64,000 nt of DNA from Pseudotabrizicola formosa (GTDB lineage Bacteria; Pseudomonadota; Alphaproteobacteria; Rhodobacterales; Rhodobacteraceae). Shown here piece by piece: positions 20,620-31,875 of this stretch. A program made the translations under genes and the position numbers. Every line of letters starts with the position of its first letter. Position 1 is the first letter of the stretch. The notes below the pieces were generated by a model. It saw only the letters and a program-made list of their open reading frames with translations. It was not told where the DNA came from and ran no database searches. The stretch covers positions 310,001 through 374,000 of the forward strand of contig NZ_PJOM01000002.1 in NCBI RefSeq assembly GCF_002900965.1, in the 5' to 3' direction.

Positions 20620-20645
20620 GGAACTGCGCCGGTCAGCCGGACGTT
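20620..20645 (+). promoter_or_regulatory. EcfG-type promoter upstream of dps
   Basis: GGAAC (20620-20624) and CGTT (20642-20645) are separated by 17 bp, matching the EcfG -35/-10 consensus GGAAC-N16/17-CGTT. It lies 55 bp upstream of the dps start, at the stop codon of the diguanylate cyclase gene. Confidence 0.75.
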
Positions 20646-20699
20646 CTTTCGCCATAAGGGGGGCCAAGTCCGGCTGCCCGCATGTCGAAAGGACCACCT

Positions 20700-21194
20700 A
20701 TGTCTGAAGCACTGAAAGCTGTTCCCGGATCTGACAAGATCGACACCGGAATCACCGGCGTGACGGCCATCGCCAAGGGGCTGAGCGATTCCCTTGCCGA
20801 CACTTATCGGCTTTTGTTCAAAACCCATGCCGTGCACTGGAATGTCGAGGGCCCGATGTTCCATTCGATTCACGTGCTGACCGAAGCCCAGTACAACAAC
20901 CTGTTCAAGGCGGCTGACGATCTGGCAGAGCGCATTCGTGCCCTTGGACGGATTGCTCCGTTCCAGATGTCTGAAATCACCCGCATGTCTTGCGTGAAAG
21001 ACCCGGCCAAACTGGGATCGGCGCAAGAGATGGTTGAAGATCTGGCAAGCGACCACGAAGCGGTGGTGCGCCGGATGCGCGATGTGATCGAGCAGGCCGA
21101 AAAGGGGCAGGATGTGGCAACCGCCGATCTGCTGACCGCCCGCTGCGCCTTTCACGAAAAAGCGGCATGGATGCTGCGCGCGACGGCAAAGTAA
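20700..21194 (+). CDS. dps: Dps family DNA-binding ferritin-like protein
   Basis: A 164-residue Dps/ferritin-like protein forming 12-subunit shells that store iron, consume peroxide and protect DNA. The ferroxidase ligands are in THAVHWNVEGPMFHSIH (His, His, Asp-equivalent region) followed by EAQYNNLFKAADDLAERIRALG, the family signature. The ATG at 20700 follows GAAAGGA. The EcfG-type promoter upstream and a strong terminator downstream make it a single-gene unit of the general stress response. Confidence 0.93.
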   Translation: MSEALKAVPGSDKIDTGITGVTAIAKGLSDSLADTYRLLFKTHAVHWNVEGPMFHSIHVLTEAQYNNLFKAADDLAERIRALGRIAPFQMSEITRMSCVKDPAKLGSAQEMVEDLASDHEAVVRRMRDVIEQAEKGQDVATADLLTARCAFHEKAAWMLRATAK

Positions 21195-21815: not shown

Positions 21816-21840
21816 AACGCGCGTTTGATCAAAAGGTTCC
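21816..21840 (-). promoter_or_regulatory. EcfG-type promoter of the secreted-protein gene
   Basis: On the minus strand GGAAC (21840-21836) and CGTT (21819-21816) are separated by 16 bp, an exact match to the EcfG consensus. It faces the gene at 21275-21760. Confidence 0.75.
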
Positions 21841-21930: not shown

Positions 21931-22740
21931 TCAGGCGTGCAGGGTCTCGGTCGATGAGAAGAACATCGCCTGGCTCACGGCGGAGCGGACCTGTTCTTCC
22001 GAGAACGGTTTGGTGATCAGGAATGCCGGCTCTGGTTTGTCTCCGGTCAGCAACCGCTCGGGGAAGGCGGTGATGAAGATGACCGGAATATCGTCAAACT
22101 GCGCAAGGATATCGTTCACGGCATCAATGCCCGAGGAATCATCGGCCAGTTGAATGTCCGACAGGATCAGATCGGGCCGTTCGCGGGCTGCCAGCTCCAC
22201 GGCCTCGCGGCGGGTGCGCGCAACGCCGGTGACCTTGTGACCGATCTGGCCAACGATATCGACGATATCCATGGCAATGATTGCCTCATCCTCGATCACC
22301 ATGACCTTGCCGGTCACCGATGCTTCCATCTCGCGAATCGCCGCATCCAGCAGGACCTGCACATCGCTTTCGTCTTGCGCCATGATTTCGGCGATTGCAG
22401 GCCGGTCAAACCCTTCGATCGCATGCAGCAACAAGGCTTCGCGCGAGTTTGGCGTCAGCCCCGCCATATGGACCTGCGCCCGTTTCGCCAGAATATCGTC
22501 ATCGGTATCCAGCGGGGCACCTGCACTGGCCCAGACCCGGTGAAAGCAGTGAAACAGGCCAATCCTTGGCGATGTTGCTTCGCGCACCGGAGTATCTTCG
22601 ATCAGGATGCTTTCCAGCGTGGCAGCCGCGTAGCGATCACCACTGTCCTGGCTGCCGGTGAGGGCACGGGCATAGCGGCGCAGAAAGGGAAGGTCGGCCG
22701 CAATTGCCGAAGTCAGATCGAAGGTCGCAGAGGCATTCAT
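21931..22740 (-). CDS. phyR: general stress response regulator PhyR (sigma-like/receiver anti-anti-sigma)
   Basis: A 269-residue PhyR. The N-terminal half is an ECF-sigma mimic (LPFLRRYARALTGSQDSGD, then LTPNSREALLLHAIEGF in the sigma4-like part). The C-terminal receiver has VIEDEAIIAMD, the phosphoacceptor Asp in LILSDIQLAD, and Lys in ITKPFS. When phosphorylated, PhyR binds NepR and frees EcfG. It is transcribed divergently from nepR-ecfG from a shared palindromic EcfG promoter, giving positive feedback. The ATG at 22740 is at the family start. Confidence 0.95.
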   Translation of the reverse strand: MNASATFDLTSAIAADLPFLRRYARALTGSQDSGDRYAAATLESILIEDTPVREATSPRIGLFHCFHRVWASAGAPLDTDDDILAKRAQVHMAGLTPNSREALLLHAIEGFDRPAIAEIMAQDESDVQVLLDAAIREMEASVTGKVMVIEDEAIIAMDIVDIVGQIGHKVTGVARTRREAVELAARERPDLILSDIQLADDSSGIDAVNDILAQFDDIPVIFITAFPERLLTGDKPEPAFLITKPFSEEQVRSAVSQAMFFSSTETLHA

Positions 22741-22767
22741 TATTTTCTCCCCAGTTTCGTTTTCTAC

Positions 22768-22800
22768 GGAACCAAACGCACTGGCTTCGCGTTCGGTTCC
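22768..22800. promoter_or_regulatory. bidirectional palindromic EcfG promoter (phyR / nepR-ecfG)
   Basis: The plus strand has GGAAC (22768-22772), 17 bp, CGTT (22790-22793). The minus strand has GGAAC (22800-22796), 17 bp, CGTT (22778-22775). The two promoters overlap almost completely, so one 33-bp element drives phyR leftward (start 22740) and nepR-ecfG rightward (start 22831). Confidence 0.8.
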
Positions 22801-22830: not shown

Positions 22831-22992
22831 ATGATGATGGAACATATGGCAGGTGACAACCAGAAGTCCAGTTTGCGCAAGGACATCGACGAAAACCTGA
22901 AACGTGTCTATGAAGATGCGTTGAAAGAGGAAGTGCCGGATCGGTTCAAGCAGTTGCTTGAGCAGTTGAAGGCCAAGGAGTCAAAAAAATGA
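22831..22992 (+). CDS. nepR: anti-sigma factor NepR
   Basis: A 53-residue protein, MMMEHMAGDNQK at the start and then the NepR core IDENLKRVYEDAL followed by PDRFKQLLEQL, the two amphipathic helices that clamp EcfG and PhyR. Several in-frame ATGs (22831, 22834, 22837, 22846) are possible starts. The stop codon overlaps the ATG of ecfG (ATGA), coupling synthesis of the anti-sigma and the sigma factor. The short length and gene order phyR-nepR-ecfG are those of the alphaproteobacterial general stress response. Confidence 0.93.
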   Translation: MMMEHMAGDNQKSSLRKDIDENLKRVYEDALKEEVPDRFKQLLEQLKAKESKK

Positions 22993-23564
22993 CTTCCGTT
23001 CCCGTCGCTCAGGCTGACCCGCGTGACGAAATGGCGAACCACATCCCGTCATTGCGCGCTTTTGCAATCTCGCTGACCCGCAATGTAAGCGAGGCGGATG
23101 ATCTTGTGCAGGAAACGATCCTGAAGGCATGGTCGAACATCGAAAAGTTCACCGTTGGCACCGATCTGCGGGCCTGGCTGTTTACCATCCTGCGCAACAC
23201 CTTCTTTTCGTCCAAGCGCAAGACTCGCCGCGAAGTGCAGGACACCGACGGTGTCCACGCGGCGACCATGTTCGAAAAACCGCATCACGACGGGCGGCTT
23301 GCCTTTACCGATTTCAGTCACGCTTTTGACAAGCTGTCGCCGGAACACCGGGAGGTTCTGATCCTTGTGGGGGCCAATGGCTATTCCTATGAAGAGGCGG
23401 CGCAGATGATGGGGGTCGCGATCGGCACAGCGAAAAGCCGTGCCAACCGGGCGCGGGCAAAGCTGTGTGATCTTCTCGGTCTGGCCGAAGGTGAGGATAT
23501 CCTGGCGGAACAATCCGGCGCGACCCTTGCCGTGATGGGCCGGTCAGGATTTCAGGCCGCATGA
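22989..23564 (+). CDS. ecfG: general stress sigma factor EcfG
   Basis: A 191-residue ECF sigma factor of the EcfG group. Sigma2 contains SLTRNVSEADDLVQETILKAW and TDLRAWLFTILRNTFFS; sigma4 contains LSPEHREVLILVGANGYSYEE and IGTAKSRANRARAKL. It directs RNA polymerase to GGAAC-N16/17-CGTT promoters, several of which lie in this window, including its own. It overlaps nepR by four bases and the downstream kinase gene by four bases. Confidence 0.95.
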   Translation: MTSVPVAQADPRDEMANHIPSLRAFAISLTRNVSEADDLVQETILKAWSNIEKFTVGTDLRAWLFTILRNTFFSSKRKTRREVQDTDGVHAATMFEKPHHDGRLAFTDFSHAFDKLSPEHREVLILVGANGYSYEEAAQMMGVAIGTAKSRANRARAKLCDLLGLAEGEDILAEQSGATLAVMGRSGFQAA

Positions 23565-25387
23565 CAGCCAGACGTGTCGCCGTGCGGCGGCGGTTTTCAG
23601 GGCTAGGCTTCCGCCTGATGGCGGTGATGGGTGTGGCCCTTCTGCCGCTTGCCATCCTGAGCTATGTTCAGGGTCTGAAAACCGCGCAGCTTGCCGAGGC
23701 ACGGGTGACCAATGTGATCCGGGGGGAAACCCTGATGGCGGCCAATCCGCTGATCGCCGAAATTGTCAAGGCGCAGACCAAGACCGCCACATTGTCGGTG
23801 GTGCTGCCTTCGGTGCTGCAAGGGGATGAAGAGTCCAATCTGGCTGCCTGTCGCAACATCATGGACAGGATTGTCGAAGCGGATATCGGTCTCATCACTT
23901 TTGCCGGATATGTCGATCGAGATGGTCAGATGCGTTGTGGTGCCCGGAACGAACAGCGCGATCTGGCGGGTACGGAGGCCATGGCGCAGCTGATGACCGA
24001 CCCTGGCCCCAAGATTGCCGTGAACCCCTATGGTCCGGTGTCGCGTGAATCGGTGCTGATCGTGTCGCATCCGGTTCGTGACCGTTTTGGCGAGCTGACA
24101 GGTTTCGCCTTTGTGTCTTTGCCCCATGTCGCGCTGGATCGGCGCATTCAGATTCAGGCAGCGGATGAGAAACAGCCGCTGTCGCTGATTACCTTTGATG
24201 CCAAGGGCGAATTGCTGACGTCTTCGGTCGGAATGGAGGAGGCGCGCAACGACCTGCCGGCCAACCGGACGCTGGAAAATCTGGCCCAGGGCAACGGCCG
24301 GAGCTTTGTAGCCAACACGGTTTCGGGCGAGCGGCGGGCCTTTGCGCTGGTACCGTTGCAGGCGGGGACGCTCTATCTGCTGGGCTCTTGGCCTGCGGAC
24401 CGGCTGAACCGGACAATTTTCGAAGGGGCGTTTCCGGCCTTTCTGTTCCCGATGATGATGTGGGCGGCAAGTTTGCTGGTGGCCTTGCTGGCGTCGGAGA
24501 GCCAGGTGCTGCGGCATGTGCGGCAGTTGCGCGACCGGATCACCGCCTTCGCCGCCGGTGAGCGGCAGTTGCCGCGCCTGAACATGGCCGGGGCTGCGCT
24601 GGAGTTGCGGTCGGTCGGGCGGGCCTATGAGCGGATGACCGAGGCGGTGGTGCGCAATGAAGCGGATCTGGAAAACACCATTCACCAAAAGGAAGTGCTG
24701 CTGCGCGAAGTTCACCACCGCGTGAAGAACAACCTGCAACTTATTGCCTCCATTCTGAATATGCAGTTGCGGGGTGCCCGTACCAACGAGGCGAAAGAGG
24801 CGATGCGTACGGTTCAGGACCGGGTGATCAGTCTGGCGACCGTGCACCGCGAGTTGTATCAGACCAGCGGGCTGACCGATGTGCGCGCCGACGAGTTGTT
24901 GCCGCGTATCGCCACCGATCTGCTGCGGATCGGCTCGGCCCCGGGACGTCGCTTTACACTGGAAGCGCAGGTGGATGATATCCGCTTGACGCCGGATCAA
25001 GCGGTGCCTTTGGCGCTGTTCCTGACCGAGGGCATGGCAAATGTGATCAAGCACTCTCCCGTAGGGCCTACCGGCAAGGCGGAGGTAAGGCTGACGCTAG
25101 AGCGGTTGGAAAGCCGCATTGCCCGGTTTACCCTGAGCAATAGCCTGAAGCCGTCCGGAGAGGCAGACACCGGTTTCCCGCAAGGGGATGGCACAGACGG
25201 CTTTGGAACCCAGTTGTTGACGGCTTTCTCTCAGCAATTGAGCGGCAAGATAACCCGCACCCAGAGCGAAGATCGCTATGTGCTGAGCGTCGATTTTCCC
25301 ATGCGTCCCCTGTCAGAAGCGGAAGAGCGGGTCGCTCCGAAAGTGGCTGCCCATCCGCAAGCGGATGATGAGGATGACCTGTCCTGA
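23561..25387 (+). CDS. sensor histidine kinase with HRxxN H-box (PhyK-like)
   Basis: A 608-residue membrane kinase. A helix near residues 18-38, a periplasmic sensor domain to about 285, a second helix near 290-312 and a HAMP-like linker precede the dimerisation/phosphoacceptor motif REVHHRVKNNLQLIASIL near 380 (HisKA_2/HWE type) and an ATPase domain with TEGMANVIKHS and DGFGTQLL. Kinases of this class phosphorylate PhyR. It starts inside the ecfG stop codon (ATGA), so it is likely the PhyK of this locus. The sensed signal is unknown. Confidence 0.88.
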   Translation: MTARRVAVRRRFSGLGFRLMAVMGVALLPLAILSYVQGLKTAQLAEARVTNVIRGETLMAANPLIAEIVKAQTKTATLSVVLPSVLQGDEESNLAACRNIMDRIVEADIGLITFAGYVDRDGQMRCGARNEQRDLAGTEAMAQLMTDPGPKIAVNPYGPVSRESVLIVSHPVRDRFGELTGFAFVSLPHVALDRRIQIQAADEKQPLSLITFDAKGELLTSSVGMEEARNDLPANRTLENLAQGNGRSFVANTVSGERRAFALVPLQAGTLYLLGSWPADRLNRTIFEGAFPAFLFPMMMWAASLLVALLASESQVLRHVRQLRDRITAFAAGERQLPRLNMAGAALELRSVGRAYERMTEAVVRNEADLENTIHQKEVLLREVHHRVKNNLQLIASILNMQLRGARTNEAKEAMRTVQDRVISLATVHRELYQTSGLTDVRADELLPRIATDLLRIGSAPGRRFTLEAQVDDIRLTPDQAVPLALFLTEGMANVIKHSPVGPTGKAEVRLTLERLESRIARFTLSNSLKPSGEADTGFPQGDGTDGFGTQLLTAFSQQLSGKITRTQSEDRYVLSVDFPMRPLSEAEERVAPKVAAHPQADDEDDLS

Positions 25388-28878: not shown

Positions 28879-28903
28879 AACGCCGAAACGGCCACCTGGT
28901 TCC
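28879..28903 (-). promoter_or_regulatory. EcfG-type promoter of the membrane-protein operon
   Basis: On the minus strand GGAAC (28903-28899) is followed after 16 bp by CGTT (28882-28879), an exact consensus match. The first gene start is 80 bp downstream at 28799. Confidence 0.75.
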
Positions 28904-29083: not shown

Positions 29084-29108
29084 GGAACCCGACTTCCGCC
29101 GCCACGTT
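29084..29108 (+). promoter_or_regulatory. EcfG-type promoter of the DUF1328 gene
   Basis: GGAAC (29084-29088), 16 bp, CGTT (29105-29108): an exact match to the EcfG consensus 79 bp upstream of the DUF1328 start. Confidence 0.75.
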
Positions 29109-29950: not shown

Positions 29951-30189
29951 GCGGCGCTCCTGTCGTCACTCGGTCTTGCGCCCGCAGGGGGCGATGCAGC
30001 CTTAACGTCGCAGGTGCGGGGTTTGGTTCCCGCTCACTTGCAGTTCGGCGAAGAATTGCCCATCTGATGCCCGACCAGGCGGCCCGGCGTCGGGATCCGA
30101 CCGGTGGGGAACCAGAAGGGCGGTGCCGCATTGAGACATGTCGAGCGGAGTCGCGCGCCCCGTTGCCGCGCAAAGGAGCGGATCTGATC

Positions 30190-30870: not shown

Positions 30871-31875
30871 TCAGCGTTTTTCGCTGCCCAAGGGAAAGGT
30901 CAGCGTGGCGCGGGTGCCGTTGATGGTTTCAAACACCAGTTGGCCTTCAAGCTGTTCGGTGAACTGCAAGGCCACCCGAAGCCCCAGACTGCGGGACTTC
31001 TCCGGCACGAAATCATGCGGTAGCCCGTCGCCATCATCCTGAACGATGATAATTGCTTCGTCGCCTCGGCTGCGCATGGTCAGCAGAAGGTGGGTTTTGC
31101 CGGTATCGCGCGCGGCATGTTCAACCGCATTCGACACCAGTTCAACAATGATCAGTGCAAGCGGCGTGGCCTGATCACCGGTGACGACCACTGGCTCGAC
31201 ATCGAAATCGAGCATGATCCGGTCCGACTGTGACGAGCTGTTGACCACTTCGGGCAGCAGCTCACGCATCAGCTGGCCCATATCGGTGGTCTGTCTTTTG
31301 GGGTTATGCAGCTGGCGTTGGATGCTTGCAACAACCTGCAGCCTGGCCGTGGCCGCGTCCAGCGCCGCCCGCGCGCTCTCATCCACCACATTGCGACGCT
31401 GCATCTTGAGCAGCGAGGCCACGACCTGCAGATTGTTCGACACCCGGTGCTGCAATTCATGGAACATGGTCTTGTTGGCCTGCGCCAGCGTGTCGGACCG
31501 GTTCTTTTCATGCTCCAGCGTGATAAGGGCCTGGCGCATCGTGTGAAGCAGCAGCAATTCCGTCGAGATGATGAACAGATAAAAGACAAGCGTCAGAATG
31601 ATCTGGGGCGAGGTCGCAAAGCTGCCGGCGGGCGCGAGAAACCAGAACCACGAGACAAGACCGCAAATCGATGCAACCGCAATCCCGGCTTTGGTTCCGG
31701 CAAAATATCCGGTCAGGATAACAGCCGGAAAAAAGGTTACAAAAGGAAAGCCCGGGGGCAGGGCCGGGTCCAAGTAATGGCGCAAGGCGACAGAAGTAAC
31801 AATTGCAAGGCTGGCAAACGCAATCTGATAGGCCGGGCTCCGCTCTGCGACGGCCCAAAGGCGCAATTGTTTCAT
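30871..31875 (-). CDS. sensor histidine kinase, DUF4118-like membrane domain plus HRxxN H-box
   Basis: A 334-residue kinase. Four hydrophobic helices in residues 15-110 with YLDPALPPGFPFVTFFPAV and FAGTKAG resemble the KdpD-type DUF4118 domain. The H-box HELQHRVSNNLQVVASLL lies near residue 140 (HisKA_2/HWE class), followed by an ATPase domain with ELVSNAVEHAA and DDGDGLP. Kinases of this class feed PhyR or single-domain receivers. It lies 43 bp downstream of a degenerate receiver gene, probably its operon partner. Confidence 0.88.
   Translation of the reverse strand: MKQLRLWAVAERSPAYQIAFASLAIVTSVALRHYLDPALPPGFPFVTFFPAVILTGYFAGTKAGIAVASICGLVSWFWFLAPAGSFATSPQIILTLVFYLFIISTELLLLHTMRQALITLEHEKNRSDTLAQANKTMFHELQHRVSNNLQVVASLLKMQRRNVVDESARAALDAATARLQVVASIQRQLHNPKRQTTDMGQLMRELLPEVVNSSSQSDRIMLDFDVEPVVVTGDQATPLALIIVELVSNAVEHAARDTGKTHLLLTMRSRGDEAIIIVQDDGDGLPHDFVPEKSRSLGLRVALQFTEQLEGQLVFETINGTRATLTFPLGSEKR

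Follow-up and report, generated by a model that had tools for sequence, protein, structure and literature searches.

Two interlocked EcfG-type promoters in a 33-bp near-palindrome between phyR and nepR-ecfG, a probable bidirectional promoter and the usual layout in Rhodobacteraceae

A stretch of 64,000 nucleotides of Pseudotabrizicola formosa (contig NZ_PJOM01000002.1, positions 310,001 to 374,000), referred to here as the window, was analysed for a 33-bp element in its general stress response (GSR) locus. In this response NepR holds the sigma factor EcfG, and phosphorylated PhyR removes NepR (PMC8103513). By Pfam matches, the minus-strand gene left of the element is phyR, and the plus-strand genes to its right encode NepR, EcfG and an HWE/HisKA_2 kinase, which identified a PhyR-NepR-EcfG partner-switch locus with divergent phyR and sensor kinase. 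The locus comprised the following features.

21931..22740, minus strand: phyR (sigma-like domain plus receiver), from the list of open reading frames, Pfam and homologues.
22768..22800, both strands: 33-bp near-palindromic element with two interlocked EcfG-type promoters, from the sequence, motif scan and genome searches.
22768..22772, plus strand: -35 box GGAAC of the nepR-ecfG direction (sequence).
22790..22793, plus strand: -10 box CGTT of the nepR-ecfG direction (sequence), within the spacer of the minus-strand promoter.
22796..22800, minus strand: -35 box GGAAC of the phyR direction (sequence).
22775..22778, minus strand: -10 box CGTT of the phyR direction (sequence), within the spacer of the plus-strand promoter.
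22831..22992, plus strand: nepR, anti-sigma factor (Pfam); possible starts at 22831, 22834, 22837 and 22846.
22989..23564, plus strand: ecfG, sigma factor (Pfam), overlapping the end of nepR.
23561..25387, plus strand: HWE/HisKA_2 sensor kinase (Pfam), overlapping the end of ecfG.

The span used for phyR in the scans was 21931-22743, one codon longer than listed. The longest phyR reading frame would begin at 22845 and cover the element; the closest homologues align from the MNAS start region onward.

The element, GGAACCAAACGCACTGGCTTCGCGTTCGGTTCC, reads GGAAC-N17-CGTT on each strand, with a spacer of 17 in the plus and in the minus promoter. An earlier note on the window had named these boxes and coordinates, and direct reading reproduced them. 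Both strands match perfectly the EcfG (ECF15) consensus GGAAC-N16-17-C/GGTT, which is backed by PMC7083833, PMC12148442 and PMC3892343. At 27 bp from the phyR ATG (22740) and 30 bp from the first possible nepR ATG (22831), the element lies at leader distance from both genes. The consensus promoters on both strands and the divergent genes on either side bear out the note's assignment of a single 33-bp site to phyR and nepR-ecfG. The two -10 boxes are separate; the single shared -10 of the bidirectional promoters in PMC12825309 was not found. As a single strand the element folds with 11 pairs and one internal mismatch (z -2.97, 3/200 shuffles folding equally well). An RNA hairpin formed by the dyad was considered and rejected, because the predicted starts at the outer edges of the element would leave the dyad outside those transcripts.

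Genome counts refer to a family taken, by its record titles, as Rhodobacteraceae, which includes Rhodobacter sphaeroides as well as the window organism. A lone consensus match is weak evidence, since single matches in the whole genome numbered 88 (31 forward, 57 reverse) and a reversed control pattern gave 230. Within the window, GGAAC-N16-18-CGTT matched seven times, where 1.07 matches would be expected from shuffles. The two-sided pattern GGAACNNAACG-N6-16-CGTTNNGTTCC was detected in 51/295 family genomes, at one place per genome, and its reversed control in 1/295. The centre in this symmetric set was solely N10 or N11, with N6-16 permitted, and the promoter spacers were solely 16 or 17, with 12-22 permitted. 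The two-sided element is not due to chance.

A register shifted by one base was present in 14 more of the 295 genomes. Exact elements were 31, 32 or 33 bp long. The symmetric form was also present in 31/148 genomes of a second sample, taken from the order; its members were all listed under this family and overlapped in part with the 295. All 65 exact elements stood 65-139 bp upstream of the NepR domain (median 81). A check of 31 family element loci, from the window and 30 relatives, showed phyR divergent from nepR/ecfG at each; at one locus the phyR match was only partial. In 22/31 of these loci, 24-31 nt separated the element edge from the point to which the first residue of the PhyR query projects.

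NepR was detected in 139/295 family genomes. The 150 NepR places listed covered 136 of these 139; some second matches in genomes were left out. An interlocked pair was scored when each promoter had no more than one mismatch and a spacer of 16 or 17; the counts depend on this threshold. The other 85 listed places, those without exact elements, gave as best pair an overlap at offset 6-8 in 55 cases, a pair at offset 2 in four and another pair in one; 14 had only a nepR-directed match, three only a phyR-directed match and eight none. Offset-2 pairs (GGAAC...CGTTCC) were counted apart because their boxes share letters and an 8-of-9 match is nearly free. Divergent phyR accompanied 76/85 of these places, including 55/55 of the overlapping ones. 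No back-to-back pair occurred among the 85. A recount on fixed 250-bp regions found overlap in 56/85, against a mean of 0.015 and a maximum of one in 200 dinucleotide shuffles. Altogether, an interlocked pair was present at 120/150 listed NepR places, in 120/136 genomes covered. The comparison across Rhodobacteraceae that the earlier note had suggested thus established the interlocked layout as the norm within the family.

The register was nearly uniform, with offset 7 in 55/65 exact and 46/55 weaker overlapping pairs. Across the 120 pairs, the -10 box was CGTT in 84 for the nepR direction and 92 for the phyR direction; the others were mostly AGTT, TGTT and GGTT, and NGTT accounted for 31/36 and 22/28, respectively. 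Bases were compared in 50 symmetric elements, one of two same-genus elements having been dropped, with the boxes fixed by the search pattern. Position 6 was C in 45/50 on each half and positions 13-20 varied. At position 7 the halves agreed in 29/50 against 18.8 expected from shuffles (p 0.0006). No result is claimed from this agreement, given the opposite deviation at position 13 (7/50 against 14.5 expected) and the fact that relatedness can yield such numbers.

Named loci were represented by the best 80 of 119 PhyR loci found. The six closest, with 95-97% identity, were five records titled Pseudotabrizicola (three named species and two metagenome-assembled genomes, MAGs) and one titled Pseudorhodobacter sp., and all six carried the exact element. 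The 80 loci comprised 28 exact symmetric, 12 exact in the shifted register and five overlapping with a weaker box; 33 showed no overlap and two lacked upstream sequence. The 33 without overlap were 32 Paracoccus-titled records and one alphaproteobacterial MAG (L056). The nepR-directed match was present in 32/32 of these Paracoccus-titled records; the phyR-directed match was absent in 26 and non-overlapping in six. The phyR-facing half can therefore be absent by itself. One of 33 Paracoccus-titled records (L036) had the exact element.

Outside the family the layout was rare. A class-wide draw of 385 genomes contained the symmetric element in two only, the window's own genome and G497. The latter lies outside the family; its element (L111 1501-1532) adjoins a receiver-domain reading frame, and phyR and nepR were not found there. 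The non-family sample comprised 60 of 76 listed NepR places; of the 16 left out, 15 ranked among the weakest listed. Matches in both directions were found at 29/60, of which 18 were back-to-back pairs, at offsets of -70 to -28 and most commonly -33 (about 8 bp between the -35 boxes), and four overlapped at offset 6-8. Divergent phyR was detected at 36/60. With 120/150 overlapping places in the family against 4/60 outside it, the interlocked layout is characteristic of the family and not strictly confined to it. It may derive from a back-to-back ancestor. The earlier note had set the element apart from the usual separate promoters. This contrast applies to the non-family loci and fails within the family, where interlocking is the rule. 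Two other arrangements were seen upstream of nepR. L201, L203 and L214 (genomes G438, G616 and G536) carry GGAAC-N16-CGTTCC, in which the -10 and the opposite -35 share letters; this is a different, shorter palindrome, possibly a chance one. L217 (G298) carries a tandem pair of perfect nepR-directed EcfG promoter matches.

The element very probably acts as one bidirectional EcfG promoter that fires phyR and nepR-ecfG with mutual exclusion. This reading is drawn from the boxes and their spacing, the gene context, the conservation of the element and its rarity outside the family. EcfG would be used in both directions, with starts near 22800 on the plus strand and near 22768 on the minus strand. 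Review PMC8103513, in which phyR and nepR-ecfG are both usually GSR-driven, was counted in favour. Because the promoters interlock, with each -10 box in the spacer of the opposite promoter, two holoenzymes should not be able to sit on the element together. A single EcfG holoenzyme would bind at a time, and its orientation would select the operon fired. The steric exclusion of one polymerase by another that the earlier note had proposed is thus what the geometry predicts. EcfG would thereby raise, from a single site, the PhyR that frees it and the NepR-EcfG pair by which it is restrained and renewed. More speculatively, phyR and nepR-ecfG could be fired from the shared site in a fixed ratio at any EcfG level, since one holoenzyme with two mutually exclusive orientations would give a constant flux ratio.

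Several observations weigh against this reading or parts of it. By the scan criteria 30/150 listed NepR places lacked an overlapping pair. At 22859-22831 on the minus strand, a consensus match of sigma-70 type (9/12 letters; two such in 300 bp against 0.2 in shuffles) might start phyR transcription at a basal level outside the element. In R. sphaeroides, membrane stress raised sigma-factor mRNA in a PhyR-dependent manner, whereas phyR mRNA showed no response, a finding that argues against a general rule; differential RNA sequencing placed a nepR-like start opposite the annotated phyR coding sequence (PMC5830050). Five sigma-70 bidirectional promoters of Escherichia coli were too weakly active at the basal level to compete, and competition was seen only once one direction was strongly activated (PMC12825309). 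The ratio-fixing part was examined in a toy model of exclusive and independent promoters with 250 parameter sets. The flux ratio of the exclusive arrangement was constant by construction. With independent promoters it drifted by a median of just 1.02-fold (90th percentile 3.4-fold, maximum 32-fold); a fixed ratio would therefore make a difference for some parameter values only.

The strongest rival, which falls somewhat short of even probability, holds that compaction of a short intergenic region made two ordinary EcfG promoters overlap, with negligible competition and no regulatory gain. The low basal competition in E. coli and the nearly constant ratio of independent promoters in the toy model both agree with it, and the absence of the layout from 32/33 Paracoccus-titled records marks it as dispensable. 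Compaction accounts poorly for a nearly fixed register alongside variable central bases, since the shortness of an intergenic region alone dictates no single register, and for the lack of back-to-back pairs among the 85 non-exact family places. Alternatively, only the nepR-ecfG direction may be used, the phyR-facing half being a relic or weak driver. The R. sphaeroides data of PMC5830050 and the 26/33 Paracoccus-titled records without a phyR-directed match favour this account, which appears improbable: with CGTT in 92 of the 120 pairs against 84, the phyR half is at least as well conserved as the nepR half, and matches in two directions recur at 29/60 non-family places.

It is very unlikely that the palindrome is the operator of a dimeric transcription factor with incidental promoter-like boxes. 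The near-perfect, well-folding dyad and the agreement of the halves at position 7 could be taken that way, yet the half-sites consist of EcfG -35 and -10 boxes with a spacing of 16-17 bp, and the length of the exact elements varies where an operator would have fixed half-site spacing. An operator is also at odds with variant -10 boxes that are mostly NGTT, with the opposite deviation at position 13 and with the retention of the nepR-directed match without the phyR-directed one in 26/33 Paracoccus-titled records. The operator was rejected on these grounds. The least probable account is a bistable switch, taken as the meaning of the earlier note's 'compact feedback switch', for which speaks the convergence of positive (EcfG, PhyR) and negative (NepR) feedback on one site; it was rejected because the same holoenzyme would fire both ways and exclusion added no bistability in the toy model (6/250 sets against 13/250 with independent promoters, and none with exclusion alone).

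Returning to the bidirectional EcfG promoter, exclusion would only divide the flux, because the same holoenzyme would fire both directions. With modest confidence, and on the toy model, a ratio-setting divider is preferred over a switch. A wider proposal is rather doubtful: that the element is a family-wide flux divider, which replaced an ancestral back-to-back pair and keeps the supply of anti-anti-sigma factor constant relative to sigma plus anti-sigma factor at every stress level. If this is true, the site would represent the first known case of an autoregulated bidirectional promoter of an extracytoplasmic function (ECF) sigma factor, as far as the openly licensed literature shows. By titles and abstract starts, no description of an interlocked or palindromic EcfG promoter was found in that literature, and a prior description is possible. 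The consulted parts of PMC7074977, PMC4842269, PMC10949492 and PMC3999984 contained nothing on such a promoter pair; PMC3999984 reports that the gene transfer agent of R. capsulatus was unaffected by disruption of phyR or the ecfG-like gene. The 120 interlocked loci, the Paracoccus-titled records without the phyR-facing half and the outgroups with separate promoters form a natural series. Such a series would let the effect of polymerase competition on the balance of sigma, anti-sigma and anti-anti-sigma factor be probed directly.

Further EcfG-type promoter matches lie elsewhere in the window. They were located at 20620-20645 (plus) upstream of a ferritin-like gene (20682-21194), at 21816-21840 (minus) upstream of a 161-aa reading frame without Pfam match, at 28879-28903 (minus) upstream of a PLDc_N protein, at 29084-29108 (plus) upstream of a small hydrophobic reading frame and at 30004-30030 (minus, 18-bp spacer) upstream of a 137-aa reading frame without Pfam match. 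The small hydrophobic protein presumably resembles DUF1328. Near the locus, at 30871-31875 (minus), another HWE/HisKA_2 kinase is encoded, which also has a DUF4118 domain. The region around the locus looks like a stress-response island. On contig C12 of the same genome, an ecfG paralogue with 44% identity was detected (L258 7276-7713, minus). A GGAAC-N16-CGTT match lies immediately upstream of it (C12:65792-65816), and a weak NepR match that does not reach the family cut-off is found at a distance of about 4 kb. The paralogue may be a second sigma factor reading the same promoters.

Three known systems are comparable. The EcfG-dependent promoters of Alphaproteobacteria share boxes, spacing and gene targets with the element (PMC7083833, PMC12148442, PMC3892343). 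The arrangement differs, in that 18 of the 29 two-direction loci among the non-family NepR places are back-to-back and four overlap. The PhyR-NepR-EcfG general stress response locus has the same gene content, divergent order and GSR-dependent units (PMC8103513); unlike at the usual locus, both units appear to leave one interlocked element of 31-33 bp in most family loci. Polymerase competition at bidirectional promoters is already known for sigma-70 of E. coli (Warman et al., Nucleic Acids Research 2026, PMC12825309), where interference can lower noise. Those promoters are alike in their short pseudo-symmetric sequence, two polymerase orientations and divergent mRNAs, and in the exclusion that the geometry predicts here. 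Their starts flank or fall within a shared -10, commonly 18, 10 or 23 bp apart. The present element instead consists of two full interlocked promoters, each with its -10 in the spacer of the other, with predicted starts about 32 bp apart and an ECF sigma factor encoded downstream.
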